A program made the position numbers and the translations under genes. A DNA stretch of 54,751 bases from Clostridia bacterium (GTDB lineage Bacteria > Bacillota > Clostridia > Oscillospirales > CAG-272): the NCBI GenBank assembly GCA_017483305.1, contig JAFULC010000017.1, positions 1 through 54,751 of the forward strand, given 5' to 3'. The notes beneath the pieces were generated by a model. It ran no database searches. It saw only the letters and a list, made by a program, of their open reading frames with translations, and was not told where the DNA came from. How positions within the stretch are numbered: position 1 is the first letter of the stretch; each line of letters opens with the position of its first letter. Shown piece after piece: positions 29,240 through 51,298 of the stretch.

Positions 29240-29268
29240 TTGCAAATATTGGCATTTGGTGATACAAT
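29240..29268 (+). promoter_or_regulatory. Promoter of the citrate synthase gene
   Basis: TTGCAA, 17-base spacer, TACAAT. The roughly 75-base leader holds TTTGCC-CCCTGC-GGCAAA and the hairpin at 29320-29334. Confidence 0.65.
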
Positions 29269-29319
29269 GTATCATTATATTCGTTTTGCCCCCTGCGGCA
29301 AAGCTGAGATCAGACTGCT

Positions 29320-29344
29320 ACCGTCTTTGGCGGTGGAAAGGAGA
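29320..29344 (+). promoter_or_regulatory. Hairpin abutting the citrate synthase ribosome binding site
   Basis: ACCGTC-TTT-GGCGGT (one T-G pair) followed at once by GGAAAGGAGA. Confidence 0.6.
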
Positions 29345-29349
29345 TATGA

Positions 29350-40629: not shown

Positions 40630-40691
40630 ATAATCGTAGAGCAGGGTGTGCTCGCGAATTTTGGTCTTTAGGCGAAATTCGTCAAAAAAAT

Positions 40692-40720
40692 CGCCGTCAT
40701 AATCGGCGGAACAGGGGATA
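40692..40720 (+). promoter_or_regulatory. Hairpin abutting the ribosome binding site of the HD gene
   Basis: CGCCG-TCATAAT-CGGCG followed by GAACAGGGGAT before ATG 40723. Confidence 0.5.
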
Positions 40721-40722
40721 AT

Positions 40723-42505: not shown

Positions 42506-43921
42506 ATGAAAAGAATTTTTGTTGTTTGCCTTGCTCTTTTGCTTGCTTTTGCGTGCGTTGGATGTATTCAGGCGCCCGTGGAGGAGAGTGAATGGGAGGG
42601 CAAGGAGGAATTTGTCGCCGCCGACGGTATGAGCGAGCAGGTGGCGAATAACGCTGCCAAATACGAGGAATACAAGAGCAAGGTCGGCTTGGCGTTCAAG
42701 CAGAACGGAGAGAGCGACGCTTCTTGCTTTGAGCTTGAGGCGGTGGGCGAAAATGAGGTCAGGATCGTCAAATATATCGGCGAGGAGAGCATTGTCGTGA
42801 TCCCCGAGAGGATCGGCGACGCCACTGTGGTGGCGATCGGCGAGGGCGCTTTTGCAAGCGCGACCGTGCGCGCGGTATACGTGCCTGACAGTGTGAAATC
42901 GGTAGAAAAGGGCGCTTTTGCGGGCGCTTCGGCGCTTGTTACTCTGCGCGTGCCCTTTATCGGTGACGGTGGGGAGAACAGTCACTTTGGCTATATTTTC
43001 GGGGCGGACAGCCACGAATACCACGCGGTCAAGGTGCCTGCGACGCTTGAGGTCGTTATCGTCGGGGCGGGTGACTCTGTTGCGGAGAACGCTTTTGCGG
43101 GCTGCAAGTCGCTTTGCGCGGTCGTGCTCCCGAATACCGTTAAATCTATTGGGAAATTTGCTTTTTACGAGTGCTTGCGCCTCGTTTACACCGAGCTTGG
43201 AGGCGCGGTCACAGAGGTGGGAAGCTACGCGTTTGGATATTGCTCAACGCTCTTTTCGATCTCGCTTGCGAGTGCGGAGCGCGTTGGATTCGGTGCGCTT
43301 TATTCCTGCGGCTCGCTTTATTCGCTGACCTTGTCGGTCGTTGGAGAGAGTGCCGAGAGCAATCGCTTCTTTGGCCATATTTTCGGCGCGGAGAGCGCTG
43401 ATTACAATGCCAATTTCGTGCCTGCGAGTCTGCGCGAGGTGAATCTTGTTGACTGTAATGAGATCCCCGACAGAGCCTTTGCCGGCTGCGCTTATATTGC
43501 AAAATTCGCGCTTGGAGAGGGAATAGAGAGCGTTGGAGTAAGAGCTTTTTACAGTTGTCGCTCTCTTAAGTCTATTGATATGCCCGATTCGGTGATCTCG
43601 ATCGGTGACGACGCATTCTTTGGGTGTGACAATCTTGAGGCTATTGATTTCGGAGCAGGTATTACAGACATTGGTATGCAGGCGTTTTACGGGTGCAGGT
43701 CGCTCAAGTCGGTCGCGATTCCCGACAAGGTGACCGAGATCAAGAGCTCGACCTTTGCGCTTTGCGAGTCGCTTTCCTCGGTCACGCTTGGAGGCGTGAA
43801 GCTTGTTGGCAAGGATGCCTTCAAGGGCTGCACCTCGCTTACTCCTATTGATTGTAGCGGAATTGAGGTCGCGCAGGGAAACGATTGCCTCGTTAAGCTG
43901 CCCGAGGAGACAGGGGAATAA
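42506..43921 (+). CDS. BspA-like leucine-rich-repeat lipoprotein (larger)
   Basis: 471 residues. The ATG at 42506 opens a lipoprotein signal MKRIFVVCLALLLAFACVGC; the frame from 42476 adds ten residues from the upstream gene overlap. A spacer of 60 residues leads to about twelve LRR_5 units (VVAIGEGAFASATVRAVYVP, VKSIGKFAFYECLRL, ITDIGMQAFYGCRSLKSVAIP). Two units are interrupted by GENSHFGYIFGADSHEYHAVKVP-type inserts, a variation common in BspA proteins of Clostridia and Trichomonas. It likely binds host or matrix proteins on the cell surface. It lies one base after the membrane protein gene. Confidence 0.88.
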   Translation: MKRIFVVCLALLLAFACVGCIQAPVEESEWEGKEEFVAADGMSEQVANNAAKYEEYKSKVGLAFKQNGESDASCFELEAVGENEVRIVKYIGEESIVVIPERIGDATVVAIGEGAFASATVRAVYVPDSVKSVEKGAFAGASALVTLRVPFIGDGGENSHFGYIFGADSHEYHAVKVPATLEVVIVGAGDSVAENAFAGCKSLCAVVLPNTVKSIGKFAFYECLRLVYTELGGAVTEVGSYAFGYCSTLFSISLASAERVGFGALYSCGSLYSLTLSVVGESAESNRFFGHIFGAESADYNANFVPASLREVNLVDCNEIPDRAFAGCAYIAKFALGEGIESVGVRAFYSCRSLKSIDMPDSVISIGDDAFFGCDNLEAIDFGAGITDIGMQAFYGCRSLKSVAIPDKVTEIKSSTFALCESLSSVTLGGVKLVGKDAFKGCTSLTPIDCSGIEVAQGNDCLVKLPEETGE

Positions 43922-43929
43922 TATTAAAT

Positions 43930-43960
43930 AAAAGCCACGACCGTCACGGTCGTGGCTTTT
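43930..43960. terminator. Bidirectional terminator
   Basis: AAAAGCCACGACCG-TCA-CGGTCGTGGCTTTT, between the LRR gene and araC. Confidence 0.9.
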
Positions 43961-43963
43961 GTG

Positions 43964-44833
43964 TTATGACATTTTCTGCTTTTTACACTCTGCGCGGTAC
44001 TCGGTCGGGGTCATTCCCGAGAGCTTTTTGAAGAGTCTTGTGAAATAGTGGATACTGTCGAAGTGCAGATCCTCGGCGATCCTTGTGAAGCTGTCGTTTG
44101 ACTCGGCGATCATTTTCTTCGCCTTGCCGATCTTCTTTTCGTTGATATATTCGACAAGCGTTTTGCCGGTTGCCGCCTTGAACTCCTTACAGAGCGTTGA
44201 ACGGTTGGTCTTGAACAAAAACGCCAGCTCCTCTATCGTGATCCTTTCGCGGTAGTTGAGATCTACGTATTCCACCAGCTCGCTTTGACTGAGCGGCGGT
44301 CTTAGGTTTTCCTCGATATTTTCGTTGTAATAATACTCGCGGACCAGCTTAAGAAGAAAATACTCAAGCAGTATTTTGAGCATCTGCTCGGCTCCGTAGC
44401 TCTGCTTTTTCTTTTTTTTCATATTGTGCGTCGGGATGTTGAAGGGAGGGGCAAACACGTTGCGCGCCTCCTTTACAATCTCGGCAAGCTTTTTGATAGC
44501 CGATTCGTTAAGCGTTATCGGTGTATTTGCCAAGACCTCGAGCGCATTTGTGTCGCATTTGAAGCCGATTATGATGACGGTTGGGTTGGTCTCGTCGCTG
44601 CAACGGAGCGAGTGCGAGTCGTTGGGGCGGTGAATGATGAGCTGATTCTTCGACAGCTTTCCTGTGTAGCTCTCGGAGATGATCTGCAGCTTTCCCGTGT
44701 TGACAAAAACCAGCTCGTAGAACGGATGCCTTTCGTCAGCCGTTGCAAAGTTCTTGTCAAATTCGAAAAAGTGAATGTTCACGACGCCCGTTATGTTGAG
44801 GTTCGTTTTAAGTACTTTTGTAATATATTCCAT
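43964..44833 (-). CDS. AraC family transcriptional regulator
   Basis: 289 residues. The N-terminal half is a cupin-like sensor (HPFYELVFVNTGKLQI, KNQLIIHRPNDSHSL), and residues about 185-285 are the double HTH of AraC proteins (ITIEELAFLFKTNRSTLCKEFKAATG, FTRIAEDLHFDSIHYFTRLFKKLSGMTPTEYR). It is divergent from the M24/ASRT/creatininase operon across 162 bases and is the obvious candidate regulator. The ATG at 44833 has no ribosome binding site and coincides with the predicted transcript start, so the mRNA may be leaderless. The ligand is probably the operon's substrate. Confidence 0.9.
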   Translation of the reverse strand: MEYITKVLKTNLNITGVVNIHFFEFDKNFATADERHPFYELVFVNTGKLQIISESYTGKLSKNQLIIHRPNDSHSLRCSDETNPTVIIIGFKCDTNALEVLANTPITLNESAIKKLAEIVKEARNVFAPPFNIPTHNMKKKKKQSYGAEQMLKILLEYFLLKLVREYYYNENIEENLRPPLSQSELVEYVDLNYRERITIEELAFLFKTNRSTLCKEFKAATGKTLVEYINEKKIGKAKKMIAESNDSFTRIAEDLHFDSIHYFTRLFKKLSGMTPTEYRAECKKQKMS

Positions 44834-44839
44834 GATTTG

Positions 44840-44867
44840 ATTATAGCAAATATCACGATTTTGTCAA
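44840..44867 (-). promoter_or_regulatory. Promoter of araC, giving a leaderless transcript
   Basis: Minus strand TTGACA, 16-base spacer, TATAAT; the -10 box ends only 6 bases before the ATG. Confidence 0.75.
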
Positions 44868-44951
44868 GATAATTATTAAATTTAGTAAAAAAATTTACGA
44901 AAGTTCAAAAATTATTGAAGATAATGCAAATACAAAAAAGAGCAAAAAAGG

Positions 44952-44957
44952 TATAAT
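44952..44957 (+). promoter_or_regulatory. -10 box of the M24 operon with weak -35
   Basis: TATAAT with AATACA at the -35 place. The lack of a good -35 fits an activator-dependent promoter; AAATTTA repeats (near 44879 and 44891) lie upstream as possible AraC sites. Confidence 0.5.
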
Positions 44958-44995
44958 GAAAACGTAAAAAAATTAACCCGCAAAGGAGAAGAACC

Positions 44996-46168
44996 ATGAA
45001 CAGAGTATGTATCCCCGATTGGGAATATCAGGAAAGAATCCAGAAGGCAGCCAAGATGCTCCGCGAGCGCGGGCTTGACGTTATGATCGTAGCATCCACC
45101 GAGAGTGACTACGCTAACGCAAGATATTTTTCGGGCTTCTGGCCTCTCTTTGAAAGAGCGGGCGTTGCTATCAGCGCAAACGGTGACGCGGCGCTTCTCG
45201 TTGGTCCCGAGTCCGCAGTTTTCGGAAAGGACTTCGGCAAGATCGACAAGGTATTCGTTCTTCGCGAATTCCGTGAGTCCGCAGACCCCTCCTATCCGGA
45301 GCTTCAGGCGAGCACCTTTAACGACGTATTCAAGGCTATCGGCGTTACCGGTGAGCACATCAAGATCGGTCTTGGAAGCTACGTTGAGTGCACTCTCCCC
45401 ATTTACGAGGGACTTAAGGACGCTTATCCCAAGGCTGAGATAGTGAAGTGCAACGATATTATGGTATCTCTCCGTCAGATAAAGAGCGCTAACGAGCTTG
45501 CTTGTATCCGCGAGGGCTTCCGCATTATCGAGCTTGCTACCGACGAGGTTATCAGATCCCTCAAGCCCGGTGTTACCGAGCTTCAGATGGTTGGCGTTGC
45601 TCAGAGAGTTATTTATGAAAACGGCGCAGAGTACGAGGGTCTTCCTATGTACGTATTCAGCGAGGAGAGCACCCGTCACGCTATCAGCCGTTCGCGTTAC
45701 AGAGAGATCAAGAAGGGCGATATCGTCCAGCTCAACCTCTCCGCGAAGATAGACGGCTATTCTCCCAGTATCGGACTTCCCGTTATTATGGGCAAGCTTG
45801 AGGGCGAGCGCCGTGAGCTTGTTGAGTTCTGCCGTCAGATGCACGAGTGGACCGGCGAAAATCTCAAGGCCGGCGTTATGGCGAGTGACGTTGCAAAGGC
45901 ATTCCTTCAGAAGTACAAGGATGCGGGATATGAGAAGAACTACGTTTACGGTCCTTGCCACGGAACGGGTATGATCGAGGTCGAGGCTCCCTGGATGGAG
46001 ACCAGCACCGACTATCTGCTTCAGGAGAATATGACCTTCCAGATCGATACCTTTATCTCCGGACCCACCTTCGGTTGCCGCTGGGAAAAGGGCGTTGCCA
46101 TCAAGAAGGACGGTATCGAGAGCTATACCGATTACCTCAAGAAGGGCATTATAGAATTGGAGTTCTGA
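44996..46168 (+). CDS. M24 / creatinase-like pita-bread protein with altered metal ligands
   Basis: 390 residues with AAAGGAG upstream. The N-terminal creatinase domain (residues about 10-165: RIQKAAKMLRERGLDVMIVAS) and the C-terminal pita-bread domain (from ELACIREGFRIIELATDEVI) match M24 proteins. By eye, the metal ligands of aminopeptidase P are mostly replaced: Asp by Asn in VQLNLSAKIDGY, the second Asp by Ser, His by Met in CHGTGMIEVEAP, and Glu by Asp in TFQIDTFI; only the last Glu (RWEKGVAI) stays. Creatinase also lacks metal, and His in STRHAISRS aligns with its catalytic His. I infer a metal-free hydrolase or ligand-binding protein. First gene of the operon. Confidence 0.85.
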   Translation: MNRVCIPDWEYQERIQKAAKMLRERGLDVMIVASTESDYANARYFSGFWPLFERAGVAISANGDAALLVGPESAVFGKDFGKIDKVFVLREFRESADPSYPELQASTFNDVFKAIGVTGEHIKIGLGSYVECTLPIYEGLKDAYPKAEIVKCNDIMVSLRQIKSANELACIREGFRIIELATDEVIRSLKPGVTELQMVGVAQRVIYENGAEYEGLPMYVFSEESTRHAISRSRYREIKKGDIVQLNLSAKIDGYSPSIGLPVIMGKLEGERRELVEFCRQMHEWTGENLKAGVMASDVAKAFLQKYKDAGYEKNYVYGPCHGTGMIEVEAPWMETSTDYLLQENMTFQIDTFISGPTFGCRWEKGVAIKKDGIESYTDYLKKGIIELEF

Positions 46169-46169
46169 T

Positions 46170-46532
46170 ATGGAAGTGTGCGGAAAGAAAAATTGGATCA
46201 TCCCCGATTGCGAGCTTCCTCCCGAGGGTGAGGGCGAGCTTAAGGGCCACGAGAGCGTGATCGTTGTTAACGACACCGACAAGACCGCGCACATCAAGGT
46301 AAAGCTGTTCTTTGTGGATAAAGAGCCTTATACCGACATTGAGTGGGTGGTTGAGCCCCAGAGAGTCAAGTGCTTCCGTATGAACAACGTCGACGATATG
46401 TGCGGATACGTTGTTGAGAAGGAGACTCAGTACGCGATGAAGCTCGAAAGCTCCACCGAGATCGTAGTGCAGTACGGCCGTCTTGACAACCGTCAGGTCA
46501 ATCTCGCATACTATACGACTCTTGCGTTTTGA
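46170..46532 (+). CDS. ASRT family (sensory rhodopsin transducer-like) protein
   Basis: 120 residues. KNWIIPDCELP, GHESVIVVNDTDKTAHI, FFVDKEPY and the C-terminal IVVQYGRLDNRQVNLAYYTTLAF match the Anabaena sensory rhodopsin transducer family, whose members are single beta-sandwich domains that form tetramers and are thought to bind small molecules, often sugars. It starts one base after the M24-like stop (TGATATG), so translation is coupled. No rhodopsin gene is present; the role here is likely ligand binding or substrate handling together with its two neighbours. Confidence 0.9.
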   Translation: MEVCGKKNWIIPDCELPPEGEGELKGHESVIVVNDTDKTAHIKVKLFFVDKEPYTDIEWVVEPQRVKCFRMNNVDDMCGYVVEKETQYAMKLESSTEIVVQYGRLDNRQVNLAYYTTLAF

Positions 46533-46627
46533 GGAGATCAGCGTGAAGGTTACTTTCATCCAAAGGTGAAATAGACTGTTTTGCGCTCGAATTTTGCCGT
46601 TGGCAAGGTTCTTCGATTACTGTTTGT

Positions 46628-46652
46628 GCCGCCATAGGCGGCGGAATGGAGA
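46628..46652 (+). promoter_or_regulatory. Hairpin abutting the ribosome binding site of the creatininase-family gene
   Basis: GCCGCC-ATA-GGCGGC (46628-46642) followed at once by GGAATGGAGA. The leader 46533-46657 otherwise shows only weak structure. Confidence 0.65.
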
Positions 46653-46657
46653 TTATT

Positions 46658-47392
46658 ATGATTTTGGATCATTCTTTCCCAAGAGAGGTCGAGAGAGTAC
46701 AGAGGGAGCGTATTCCGCTTGTTATCCCTGCGGGAACAGTTGAATATCACGGTCCTCATTGCTCCTACGGCTGTGATACCCTCGTTGCAGAGGGCTTGAT
46801 CAAGGAGCTAATGAAGACAAAGGAGATCATGCTTGCGCCCACCATCAGCTACAGTCCCTCGAGCTACGCGGTCGGCGACGACAAGAGCGGCACGGTGCAC
46901 GTTGAGGAGAGAGCTTTTGAAAACTACGTTTATTACGTGTTTATGAGTCTTCTTTCGGCGGGATATCGCAACATTTACGTGGTCATTCACCATCAGTTTG
47001 AGCAGGAGAGCGAGATGCCGATGACTCTTTGCTACCGTATGGCGGCCAAAAGAGCGACTATGGCGTATCTCGAAAAAACGCTCGGTCAGGGCTGGTGGGG
47101 AAGTGAAAGCTACGCTAATTACTACGAGCAGCTTGAGGGCGACAACAACCCCTTCAACTGGATCAAGGTCATTCCCACGATGAGCACCGCGGTTCAAAAT
47201 GCCACGGGCTATGATCACGCGGGCGAGTTTGAGTGCTCGATACTTATGGCGCTTTATCCCGATTGCGTGGAGCTTGACCGGATCGGTGAAAGACCTCATT
47301 GGTTTACCAAGAGCGCCGAGAGGGCAAATGCCGAGCTCGGTGAGAAGATGGTAAAGCTTTCGCTCGAATATCTGGACAAGGCTATTCGATAA
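46658..47392 (+). CDS. Creatininase family amidohydrolase with variant motif
   Basis: 244 residues from ATG 46658. ATG 46646 lies in the ribosome binding module and is rejected. PAGTVEYHGPHCSYGCDT keeps the Glu, His and Asp metal ligands of creatininase, and YDHAGEFECS matches the later HAGExExS box. The central NGHGGN box is changed to IHHQFEQES: His stays, but the Gly-Gly-Asn is lost. The family opens cyclic amides or related bonds, with members acting on creatinine, formamidopyrimidines and peptide precursors. It is third in the operon with the M24-like and ASRT genes. The substrate is unknown. Confidence 0.85.
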   Translation: MILDHSFPREVERVQRERIPLVIPAGTVEYHGPHCSYGCDTLVAEGLIKELMKTKEIMLAPTISYSPSSYAVGDDKSGTVHVEERAFENYVYYVFMSLLSAGYRNIYVVIHHQFEQESEMPMTLCYRMAAKRATMAYLEKTLGQGWWGSESYANYYEQLEGDNNPFNWIKVIPTMSTAVQNATGYDHAGEFECSILMALYPDCVELDRIGERPHWFTKSAERANAELGEKMVKLSLEYLDKAIR

Positions 47393-47398
47393 TAAAAC

Positions 47399-47433
47399 AA
47401 AAAACGCTTGTGAGCATTCACAAGCGTTTTTTT
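47399..47433. terminator. Bidirectional terminator
   Basis: AAAAACGCTTGTGA pairs with TCACAAGCGTTTTT and a T-run follows. It is shared with the convergent zinc ATPase gene. Confidence 0.85.
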
Positions 47434-47448
47434 GTGTGTAATTATAGA

Positions 47449-49350
47449 TTATTTGAGAGCTCGCATAGAGTTGAGGATCGCTATGACCGCAACTCCGACG
47501 TCTGCGAAGACTGCGACGTTGAGTCCTACGAGTCCAAGTGCGCCGAGCGCGAGCACGCCTGCCTTGACACCGAGCGCGAAAACGATGTTTTGTATCACGA
47601 TGCGGCGTGTTTTCTTGGCAAGCAAAATGGCGTCGCCTATTCTGTCGAGATCGTCGTTCATAAGCACGACGTCGGCGGCTTCTATTGCCGCATCCGAGCC
47701 GAGCGCGCCCATGGCGATGCCGACGTCGGCTCTTGCGAGGACGGGGGCATCGTTGATGCCGTCTCCAACAAAGGCTACGTTTGCGCCGTTTTTACTCTTT
47801 TGGAGGAGGGTTTCGATCGCTGTCACCTTGTCGGCGGGGAGGAGCTCTGCGTGATATTCGTCAATGCCGAGCTCTGATGCGGTCAGCTTGGCTTCTGCGG
47901 CGCGGTCGCCCGTGAGCATAACGGTCCTTTTGACTCCAAGCTTACGAAGCTTTGCGAGAGCGGAGGTTGCCTTCTGTTTGGGGCGGTCGGAGACTGTGAT
48001 CGCTCCGAGATATTCGCCGCCATGTGCTACGTAGACCGTCACTCCGCGCTCCGCGAGGATGTCGGAGGGCAGGGAAATGTTGTTTTCTCTCATTAGCTCA
48101 GCGTTGCCGACAAGCAGGAGCTTTTCGTCTACAAGAGCCTTGACTCCACGTCCCGAGACTTCCTTGATTTCGGTCGCTTCGTGCCCTGTGGCGCAAATTT
48201 CGGCGTTTGCGGCGGTGATTATAGCGAGCGAGATGGGGTGAGTTGAATATTTTTCTGCGGAGGAGGCGAGGGAGAGCAGCTTTGCCCGGTCGATTCCTTT
48301 TGTTTTTATATTTGTTACCGTAAAATTGCCCTCGGTGAGAGTGCCGGTTTTGTCAAAGACTACGGTGTCGCACTTGGCGAGTGCATCAAGATAGCTTGAG
48401 CCCTTGACCAAGATTCCCTTGGAGGACGCCGAGCCGATGCCGCCGAAATAGGAGAGCGGCACCGAGATGACGAGCGCGCAGGGGCAGCTTATGACGAGGA
48501 AGGTCATTGCGCGACCAACCCAATTCTGCCAGACGGCAAGGCTATCTGCTCCGATGATAAGCGGAGGGAGGACTGCCAGAAGTACCGCCGCACCGACGAC
48601 CGCGGGGGTATAAAAGCGAGCGAATTTCGTGATGAAATTCTCGCTTTTCGATTTGTTTTCAACCGAGCTTTCGACAAGCTGAAGTATTTTTGAGACGGTC
48701 GAGTCGCCAAAGAGCTTGGTGACCCTGATTTTTATAAAGTCCTGCATATTGACGCATCCGCTGAGCACTGTGTCGCCTTCCTTTACGTCGCGCGGAAGCG
48801 ACTCGCCCGTAAGTGCGACGGTGTTGACCGAGGAGCTACCCTCGATTATTTCGCCGTCGAGCGCGATCTTACCGCCCGGCTTGACGCAAATTACGTCTCC
48901 TATTCTGATCTGCTCGCAGGGTATTTCTACAAGCTCGCCGTCGTCGTTCTCGATGAATGCCGTGTCTGCGCGGATCGAGAGCAATGCCTTAATCGAGCCG
49001 CGGCTCTTATTGACCGCGACGTGCTCGAAAAGCTCACCGACGCTATAAAAGAGCATGACGAAGACCGCCTCGGAGTATTCGCTGATTGCGAAAGCGCCGA
49101 TCGTGGCGATCGACATCAGGAAATTTTCGTCGAACATCTGACCGCGCAAAATCCCTCTTGCCGCGCGCATCAGAACCGCGCCGCCGACTATGAGGTAGGG
49201 TATCATATAAAGCAAAAGCGATTGCAGATCAAAGCCGTTCAGATAGATAAGCTTGGGGATCAGGTCCAAATGCTCGGTCAGCGCGACCGATATCAGCGCA
49301 ACTGCCGAAATAATGATCTTTATCAGTTGCTTTTTGTCCTTTTTTCGCAT
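47449..49350 (-). CDS. zntA: Zinc/cadmium-exporting P1B-type ATPase
   Basis: 633 residues. The membrane motif ISCPCALVISVP gives the CPC metal site, TGESLPRDV the actuator loop, VFDKTGTLTEGNF the phosphorylated Asp, EKYSTHPISLAI the P1B Ser-x-His-Pro box, and FVGDGINDAPVLARADVGIAMG the hinge. It lacks the usual N-terminal HMA domain, which is instead a separate gene one base upstream (49352-49573). It should export Zn2+, Cd2+ or Pb2+ from the cytoplasm. It forms a unit with the HMA protein and lies downstream of the ArsR repressor on the same strand. Confidence 0.93.
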   Translation of the reverse strand: MRKKDKKQLIKIIISAVALISVALTEHLDLIPKLIYLNGFDLQSLLLYMIPYLIVGGAVLMRAARGILRGQMFDENFLMSIATIGAFAISEYSEAVFVMLFYSVGELFEHVAVNKSRGSIKALLSIRADTAFIENDDGELVEIPCEQIRIGDVICVKPGGKIALDGEIIEGSSSVNTVALTGESLPRDVKEGDTVLSGCVNMQDFIKIRVTKLFGDSTVSKILQLVESSVENKSKSENFITKFARFYTPAVVGAAVLLAVLPPLIIGADSLAVWQNWVGRAMTFLVISCPCALVISVPLSYFGGIGSASSKGILVKGSSYLDALAKCDTVVFDKTGTLTEGNFTVTNIKTKGIDRAKLLSLASSAEKYSTHPISLAIITAANAEICATGHEATEIKEVSGRGVKALVDEKLLLVGNAELMRENNISLPSDILAERGVTVYVAHGGEYLGAITVSDRPKQKATSALAKLRKLGVKRTVMLTGDRAAEAKLTASELGIDEYHAELLPADKVTAIETLLQKSKNGANVAFVGDGINDAPVLARADVGIAMGALGSDAAIEAADVVLMNDDLDRIGDAILLAKKTRRIVIQNIVFALGVKAGVLALGALGLVGLNVAVFADVGVAVIAILNSMRALK

Positions 49351-50408: not shown

Positions 50409-50437
50409 TTGTGTTTTTGAGTGAAATATGCTACAAT
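50409..50437 (+). promoter_or_regulatory. Promoter of the XRE-solenoid gene
   Basis: TTGTGT, 17-base spacer, TACAAT. Confidence 0.6.
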
Positions 50438-50500
50438 ATAGTAAAGGAAATCGATTATCCCGATACGTCGGACGCGGCGAAGGTGAGAAAGGAATTTTTT

Positions 50501-51298
50501 ATGGATATTCAGAGCAACATATCTAACAACATCAAGAAATATAGAAAAGAGCTCTGCCTCAGTCAAGAAGCACTGGCGGAAAGACTCGGAGTGACATCGC
50601 AGGCGGTCAGCAAATGGGAGTGCATGCTTTCTATTCCCGATATCGATTCAATAATCGCTTTGTCGGAGCTTTTCGGGATCACGATTGACAAGCTTTTGCT
50701 TGACAAGGATAGCGATTCAGGCCGTCAGGAAAGTGCTTTTGAGAAGGATGACGGAGAAGGACAGCACTTTGACCGACGTGACATTCTCGGACGCTACTAT
50801 TTTGATGCGTTGCCGGACGACAAGGATCTGCGCGTGCTTCAGTTTGTGGGCAGGAGGCTTATCAGAGAAAATGACTACAAGCGCGACATGATCATTCCGC
50901 TGGCTATTGATGAAAGATCTATCGGGGACGGGAAAACGGTGAACGTTCATATAGTCGGAAACGCGCATATTGAGGGAGACATAGGCGGAAATGTTACGGC
51001 GGGAGATGCTATCGCTTGCGGTAACGTAGGAATGTCGGTTCGTGCAGGCGACGGAGTTGCTTGCGGTAACGTAGGAATGTCGGTTCAGGCAGGAGACGGG
51101 GTTAACTGCGGCAACGTGGGGATGTCGGTTACTGCGGGGGATGGCGTTAATTGCGGAAATGTTGGTGCTTCGGTTACGGCAGGGGACAATGTGACCTGCG
51201 GCGACGTTCACACAATCACGAATTGCGGCGGTGATATTCATTGTCAGAAGCTTGAGGGTGAGATCAAGCACTGTGACGGCGTGGTTTACGTTGGATAA
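50501..51298 (+). CDS. XRE regulator fused to a Cys-ladder solenoid domain
   Basis: 265 residues. ATG 50501 follows GAAAGGAA. Residues about 3-60 are a Cro/CI HTH (NIKKYRKELCLSQEALAERLGVTSQAVSKWE). A linker of about 90 residues follows. From about residue 165 come five 15-residue repeats of the form AGDGVxCGNVGMSVx, each with one Cys at the same place, then two weaker turns (ITNCGGDIHCQKLEGEIKHC). This predicts a beta-solenoid, similar in shape to bactofilins, with a line of Cys on one face. The repeats could bind metal or respond to thiols. The target genes are unknown. Confidence 0.85.
   Translation: MDIQSNISNNIKKYRKELCLSQEALAERLGVTSQAVSKWECMLSIPDIDSIIALSELFGITIDKLLLDKDSDSGRQESAFEKDDGEGQHFDRRDILGRYYFDALPDDKDLRVLQFVGRRLIRENDYKRDMIIPLAIDERSIGDGKTVNVHIVGNAHIEGDIGGNVTAGDAIACGNVGMSVRAGDGVACGNVGMSVQAGDGVNCGNVGMSVTAGDGVNCGNVGASVTAGDNVTCGDVHTITNCGGDIHCQKLEGEIKHCDGVVYVG

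Follow-up and report, generated by a model that had tools for sequence, protein, structure and literature searches.

The window analysed here is the whole of a 54,751-nucleotide contig (JAFULC010000017.1, GenBank assembly GCA_017483305.1) from a Clostridia bacterium whose genome comprises 2.0 Mb in 63 contigs. It contains an operon of three genes that encode an M24-like protein, an ASRT-domain protein and a creatininase-family protein (CRN), opposite a divergent araC gene. We propose that these genes form an accessory, AraC-activated sugar-catabolic module of gut Clostridia that includes a ring-opening hydrolase, a reading to which we give a probability of about 0.55. The trio is a conserved unit of many clostridial families rather than a feature of one strain, and the cassette is a new combination of known families. 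The spacer in front of the CRN gene is occupied by a copy of a repeated structured leader, which may exceed the cassette in novelty. A preliminary description had placed the three genes on one strand, with gaps of 1 and 125 bases and a divergent araC; this observation was confirmed by the coordinates, by Pfam matches and by alignment of ortholog starts, and the functional reading built on it was partly supported.

Conservation of the M24-ASRT-CRN trio

A scan of 84,980 species with two M24 peptides yielded 328 relatives, the closest named ones being metagenome-assembled Clostridia genomes from the gut of goat, sheep and deer. The best 80 of the 328 constitute our 80-locus set, a set of close relatives (M24-like protein 77–100% identical to that of the window) in which L086 and L094 share an assembly and L088 looks nearly identical to L089. 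By their record titles, the trio relatives originate mostly from ruminants and other herbivores. Profile searches detected M24, ASRT and CRN in this order on one strand in 63 of the 80 loci. The others contained M24-ASRT without CRN (8 loci), M24-CRN without ASRT (7) or M24 alone (2); the incomplete locus L086 stops 110 bases past ASRT. A homolog of the window AraC (cluster c3) was present in 55 of the 80 loci, in 43 of them divergent and within 400 bp, and all four parts occurred together in 33.

Similar results were obtained with two wider samples. In a family sample of 118 genomes the M24 query matched 11 genomes at 1e-40 and the CRN query matched 9 at 1e-15; all nine CRN matches adjoined an M24 ortholog, and ASRT lay between in 6 of 10 close M24 loci. 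Neither M24 nor CRN was found at these thresholds in the same-genus relative G048, and the distribution of the trio is therefore patchy. In a class sample of 371 genomes the M24 profile gave 39 matches, nine of which (332–353 bits) were set aside as a sister clade, leaving 30 main-clade loci in 29 genomes. Within 3 kb of these loci ASRT was found at 24, CRN at 24 and both at 20, across 11 families; the ASRT count omits most ASRT matches from genomes without a main-clade M24. The neighbourhood check suggested in the preliminary description thus showed that the three families recur together well beyond this strain. Over the 63 full loci the protein distances among M24, ASRT and CRN were correlated (r of 0.42, 0.60 and 0.51, with none of 999 permutations as high), as would be expected of a cassette inherited together.

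A shared putative operator upstream of the M24 gene

The operon promoter was earlier said to have no good -35 element, in keeping with activation by AraC; the first statement held and the second is well supported. A TATAAT box is present and the promoter scan lists nothing there, while the araC promoter is perfect. Upstream of M24 we detected a shared 42-bp site that consists of two 21-bp direct repeats with the consensus TTTACgATtgTgcAAAAaanAtTnAcnATTtTgTAAAgACAA. The site scored above 20 bits in 63 of 79 M24 promoters, as compared with 0.9 bits for the best of 395 shuffled regions. In held-out scoring, with the site's own cluster excluded, 60 of the 63 sites still exceeded 10 bits and the same place was recovered in 61, although 58 of the 63 belong to a single cluster. 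Five of 910 other genes at the same loci exceeded 20 bits: two DUF4432 genes that head an M24 operon, a small gene that precedes M24, and a GH3-family gene in L088 and in L089. The loci with the operator upstream of DUF4432 are L104, L117 and L143. A search of the whole host genome with the degenerate pattern of the window operator (up to 3 mismatches) gave no second match.

The downstream half of the operator overlaps the -35 position of the operon promoter. With spacings of 14–18 bp searched, the distance from operator to -10 box was 16 bp in 60 of the 63 promoters, 15 bp in two and 17 bp in one; when a wider range was searched, two loci had a better -10 match 21 bp away. A direct-repeat operator overlapping -35 and placed 15–17 bp from the -10 box, the arrangement by which we define an AraC-activated promoter, was thus observed in 63 of 79 loci. 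The operator was present in 54 of 55 loci with araC and in 9 of 24 without it (Fisher p 3e-9, which the kinship of the loci prevents from being a true probability). An operator in the place of a missing -35 element fits activation by AraC, and the comparison of promoters strongly supports such activation of the operon from the shared putative operator. The survey covered the 79 M24 promoters and, among class-level trio loci, nine further ones (L142–L150).

Features of the three proteins

The M24 domain of the first protein scored 88 bits against a Pfam cut-off of 23. When the protein was read against 2zsg, solved prolidases and the canonical relative L131, the two bridging metal aspartates were replaced by N247 and by serine or alanine at position 258, and a glutamate ligand by D351. 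Position 247 was Asn in all 80 orthologs and position 258 was Ser in 41 and Ala in 39, whereas H228, H322, E328, E330, D351 and E364 were invariant in all 80. The protein does not carry the five-ligand M24 metal set (Asp, Asp, His, Glu, Glu), and these residues set it apart from ordinary dinuclear M24 peptidases. It also scored far below the cut-offs of the equivalog models ectoine_eutD (43 bits against 613) and PepQ. In the sister clade of metal-less M24 proteins a phosphotriesterase-family gene was found within 1 kb in 7 of 9 loci. The metal-less M24 is therefore paired with a different metallohydrolase in each clade, CRN in the main one and a phosphotriesterase-family protein in the sister one. 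The sister modules lie at L133 (5847–8453, with ASRT in the same operon), L134, L135, L137–L140, L041 and L042. Plasmid relatives of the M24-like protein were 21–26% identical, and four of them stood in mixed gene settings. On a Leisingera plasmid (L129, 4001–5158) an M24-like 'Xaa-Pro peptidase' gene lies within a galactarate/TRAP-transporter operon, again a sugar setting.

The preliminary description had held both active sites to be altered. This is correct for the M24-like protein; the CRN site is largely intact. CRN matched PF02633 with 102 bits (cut-off 31), and E33, H35, D44, H116, H191 and E196 were kept in 68–70 of 70 orthologs, a few of which are truncated at contig ends. The first four of these residues align to E34, H36, D45 and H120 of PDB 1j2t, the metal ligands of that creatininase. 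An HHQxE motif and W151 were near-invariant in the 70 orthologs; at the position of this motif creatininase has NGHYEN and other members have NGHGGN. The models for creatininase (TIGR04448), IolN 3-dehydro-scyllo-inosose hydrolase (NF041098) and MftE (TIGR03964) gave CRN 50–63 bits against cut-offs of 172–245, the best named model being TIGR04448 with 63 bits against 235. By these scores CRN is a creatininase-superfamily member outside the named equivalogs, in a new subfamily marked by HHQxE.

The ASRT protein matched PF07100 with 111 bits (cut-off 25). In its pocket signature His27 and Glu28 are kept and the cysteine is replaced by Ile or Val in 71 of 71 orthologs (Ile in the window), while Cys68 is invariant in all 71. 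The SHExxCxxN signature given for the ASRT-like family in the ASRAH paper is thus incomplete here, with the histidine kept and the cysteine lost, and by its residues the operon protein is a divergent ASRT subfamily. The host genome has a second, canonical ASRT gene with SHExxCxxN away from the operon (L001, 1408–1851, contig C41), and in L011 (1260–2450, minus strand) a canonical ASRT is fused in frame to an Asp/Glu racemase domain. Ten proteins encoded beside canonical ASRT genes showed no single theme. In PMC2739507, stand-alone ASRT proteins are described in operons with sugar enzymes and are proposed to act as cytoplasmic sugar sensors via protein contact. The main text of that paper contains no words beginning with creatinin, peptidase, prolidase, M24 or Clostridi, and creatininase is not mentioned in the passages of PMC9007349 that were consulted. 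Among the ten papers listed by a search of open-licence literature for creatininase and ASRT together, none had both.

A repeated structured leader before the creatininase gene

The CRN gene most likely starts at ATG 46658, the start of most aligned orthologs, which leaves a 125-base gap after ASRT; the open reading frame list has an earlier ATG at 46646 and hence a gap of 113. The length of 125 bases given in the preliminary description was most likely right, but the spacer is a repeated structured leader and not a plain gap. It is 98 bases longer than the 27-base spacer of L032 and L047, where the element is absent. Searched as DNA, the spacer had 37 matches in the host genome, itself included. 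A covariance model (R1) built from 20 copies gave at least 46 matches there at E up to 0.01, the counts being lower bounds since 150 of 1016 candidates were scored. Among 41 copies fetched, 39 ended between -1 and +2 nt from the start codon of an open frame (a raw count), and the two others were upstream members of tandem pairs. Tandem copies were also seen in L246, L248, L276 and other loci, and in those examined just the last copy touches the start codon. Two other matches in the window both end right before an ATG (40636–40722, 22.5 bits; 29259–29349, 12.9 bits, E 0.48). Genes headed by the leader, as named by eye from their N-termini, include groEL, recA, lon, cysS, rnc and others.

Similar placement was observed in relatives: 26 of 28 copies ended at a start codon in G104, and in the more distant G059 and G068 the counts were 9 of 14 and 1 of 2. 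Of 26 G104 genes with a leader, 13 match a host gene that also has one, and the copies are therefore partly conserved and partly turned over. The leader was found in at least 19 of the 118 family genomes and in at least 12 of the 371 class genomes including the host, with few candidates per genome scored; matches outside the family were weak (38–51 bits). None of the 80 trio loci had the leader in the ASRT-CRN spacer, three having a match elsewhere, so the copy was either gained in this strain or lost elsewhere.

In an alignment of 44 copies on R1, which leans to the model, 15 of 28 pairs showed compensatory changes, and compensatory cells numbered 48 as compared with 13.4 (sd 2.8) after shuffling and at most 17 when the alignment was slid. 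A free alignment of 28 copies supported two helices with five compensated pairs; covariation from the first 20 copies alone was weak. For the fold of the window copy the z value is -3.3. The last helix involves bases immediately ahead of GGAG and within it, a pairing suggestive of translational control. Rfam gave no match in 43900–47500 and, for the loci of the 20 copies at E up to 1, only Teg23 (18.7 bits against a cut-off of 166), and no description of the leader was seen among the papers listed by literature searches aimed at it. We give roughly even odds that the leader represents a family of mobile translation leaders, structured and so far undescribed, each an RNA of about 125 nt that folds into three helical domains and has its own Shine-Dalgarno sequence partly paired in the last hairpin. 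Such leaders would be placed at the starts of unrelated genes in at least 46 sites of this genome and would newly have captured the CRN gene here. If this is true, scattered genes would share one translational control; should the leader act on translation, it would represent a novel means by which repeats reshape expression throughout a genome.

Neighbouring genes and the proposed sugar-catabolic role

Counts of neighbouring genes were taken from gene calls seeded on the M24 reading frame. The annotated neighbours, a chosen subset, include glycoside hydrolases (GH2, GH3, GH31, GH36 and GH38), a rhamnosidase, a fucosidase, an apiosidase-like protein and an aldose epimerase, as well as FGGY kinases, NagA/NagB-like proteins, solute-binding-protein matches (some weak) and a polygalacturonase-like match below cut-off. 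GFO/IDH/MocA oxidoreductases (cluster c4, two members checked) were present in 15 of the 80 loci. Two distantly related families of about 700 amino acids, c6 and c8, have no Pfam match above cut-off and occurred in 15 loci, in 6 of them directly after CRN; examples are L060 (12284–14410) and L119 (13347–15428), with 13 more loci. A PDB profile search with c8 gave weak matches, the best being a beta-hexosaminidase fragment (0.0016), and one with a c6 query gave none; the faint GH20 domain-2 signal in these families suggests a glycoside hydrolase. DUF4432 was found near the trio in 11 of the 80 loci. It was present in 3 of 9 loci without ASRT and in 8 of 71 others (p 0.10) and, with nine loci added, in 5 of 13 against 8 of 76 (p 0.02), figures that are no more than suggestive of DUF4432 replacing ASRT.

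The preliminary description had inferred a catabolic route for a cyclic amide, a modified sugar or an amino compound. Many neighbour genes fit its carbohydrate side, and no link to a cyclic amide was shown. Sugar lactonases are found among the PTE and Amidohydro_2 relatives, and IolN, a creatininase relative, opens a diketo-inositol; ring opening of a modified sugar was therefore chosen as the likeliest chemistry. Inducer-bound AraC is known to recruit RNA polymerase at araBAD-type promoters. In the proposed mechanism AraC, bound to its inducer, most likely a sugar or a compound derived from one, would sit on the tandem repeat and recruit RNA polymerase. CRN, with its metal site kept, would open the ring of an oxidised or modified sugar such as a keto-sugar, a lactone or a glycosyl amide, and the M24-like protein would act on the same compound or on the product as a metal-free hydrolase or lyase, in the manner of creatinase. 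ASRT may serve as a small tetrameric partner that binds the sugar. The three products would act together, and the cassette would be an add-on to several glycan-degrading loci, not tied to one glycan.

Several observations weigh against this proposal. The neighbours vary, their annotation covers a chosen subset, and they include a penicillin-binding protein, an ABC transporter and glutamate dehydrogenase, which are not carbohydrate genes; in the window itself no sugar gene was seen beside the cassette by eye, without a scan. Amides and peptides, too, are among the substrates of both hydrolase folds, so that the compound may instead be a nitrogenous one. The loci behind the trio and operator counts are related in sequence, with two pairs near-duplicate or from the same genome, and the counts do not represent independent events; some loci hold just two trio genes or one. 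Of the nine further class-level loci, two (M24 77–78% identical) have the operator, which was not found in the other seven (61–66% identical; one begins at a contig end).

Alternative explanations

Since both folds match the creatininase/creatinase pair, the operon could serve a creatine/creatinine-like pathway in which ring opening of a cyclic amide by CRN would be followed by cleavage of the product by the M24-like protein, ASRT acting as sensor. TIGR04448 is the best named model for CRN, and the M24 profile hits creatine amidinohydrolase (1chm). This hit is distant, however; in PDB searches the M24-like protein was nearer to prolidases than to creatinase, CRN falls well short of the TIGR04448 cut-off, many annotated neighbours are sugar genes, and ASRT is not known to be connected with creatine. 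The link that the preliminary description had drawn to this pathway was not borne out by the TIGR04448, ectoine hydrolase and PepQ models, all far below their cut-offs. On model scores and neighbours we rejected the pathway as the default reading and regard it as very improbable. Scavenging of peptides or glycopeptides, with amidohydrolases removing groups that an amide bond joins to sugars (for example in glycosyl-asparagine or muropeptide pieces), is unlikely but deserves more weight. The M24 and creatininase families include peptidases (the MftE model gave CRN 50 bits), and NagB/NagA-like clusters (c23 and c24) occurred in 3 of the 80 loci, with a SIS-domain gene also in L058; such amino-sugar genes nevertheless mark a small minority of loci, and the bridging metal ligands of a peptidase are lost in all 80.

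The loss of these ligands, with Asp never found at the bridging positions in 80 orthologs, would also agree with the M24-like protein being a pseudoenzyme that serves only as the scaffold of a complex. A scaffold would hardly need the six residues that are invariant in all 80, and creatinase itself is active without metal, so that we consider this rather improbable. DNA looping by the Anabaena ASRT is reported in PMC8660804, and ASRT might likewise be a DNA-looping regulator of the operon instead of a sugar-binding partner of the enzymes. The operator tracks araC, however, and 6 of the 7 M24-CRN loci without ASRT keep it, 5 before M24 and 1 before DUF4432; we see little chance of such a role. 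A metal-less M24 protein, an ASRT protein and a creatininase relative without assignment, each hard to place by itself, are thus one regulated unit in many uncultured gut Clostridia. ASRT, usually named after a light receptor, gains a testable role with named enzyme partners, and the operator makes the inducer findable.

Features of the window

The coordinates of the operon and of its control elements are collected in the table below. By eye we also observed, at 50411–51298, a helix-turn-helix protein whose second half consists of near-identical GNVGxSVxAGDxVxC repeats.

Table. Position, strand and supporting evidence of the annotated features (window coordinates)
Feature	Position	Strand	Evidence or remark
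araC, AraC/XylS-family regulator	43964-44833	-	HTH_AraC 1.1e-18, HTH_18 6.2e-18; divergent from operon
araC promoter, TTGACA-16-TATAAT, 12/12	44840-44867	-	promoter scan
Putative AraC operator, two 21-bp direct repeats	44894-44935	+	44.5 bits with the 63-site matrix
Operon -10 box, TATAAT	44952-44957	+	16 bp downstream of operator
M24-like (pita-bread) protein gene	44996-46168	+	PF00557 8.9e-25, PF01321 6.1e-11
ASRT (ASRAH) small beta-sandwich protein gene	46170-46532	+	PF07100 5.4e-32; PDB 2ii7 2.5e-16
Leader element copy with own Shine-Dalgarno, ends at creatininase ATG	46533-46657	+	125.3 bits, model R1 (copy helped build R1)
Creatininase-family (CRN) metallohydrolase gene	46658-47392	+	PF02633 3.3e-29
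Terminator-like hairpin, 15-pair stem and T run on minus strand	47399-47432	-	between operon and convergent gene

Comparison with known systems

The control region resembles those of araBAD and rhaBAD in its divergent regulator, in direct-repeat half-sites with a 21-bp period and in the placement of the downstream half over -35; it differs from them in operator sequence, regulator and target genes. The M24-like protein shares the two-domain fold and the H322 and E364 positions with prolidase/aminopeptidase P, creatinase and the ectoine hydrolase DoeA. Unlike these enzymes, it has Asn and Ser/Ala in place of the metal Asp-Asp pair and Asp in place of Glu; creatinase, for its part, catalyses without metal. 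CRN has the fold and core ligands of creatininase, IolN and MftE, with HHQxE where creatininase has NGHYEN. The ASRAH/ASRT operons described by De Souza, Iyer and Aravind (2009, PMC2739507) lie in isomerase-aldolase-kinase and ABC-transporter neighbourhoods, unlike the operon studied here.

The leader has counterparts among repeated elements. As described in PMC3049150, the pneumococcal BOX is a repeated element with many intergenic copies, and PMC4679880 places most sets of Beggiatoaceae TAACTGA repeats in one genome just before start codons. Like BOX and TAACTGA, the leader is present in many intergenic copies, and it shares with TAACTGA the placement at start codons (PMC4679880). It differs from the TAACTGA heptamers, few regions of which have a Shine-Dalgarno sequence according to PMC4679880, in being about 125 nt long, with conserved helices and a Shine-Dalgarno sequence of its own.

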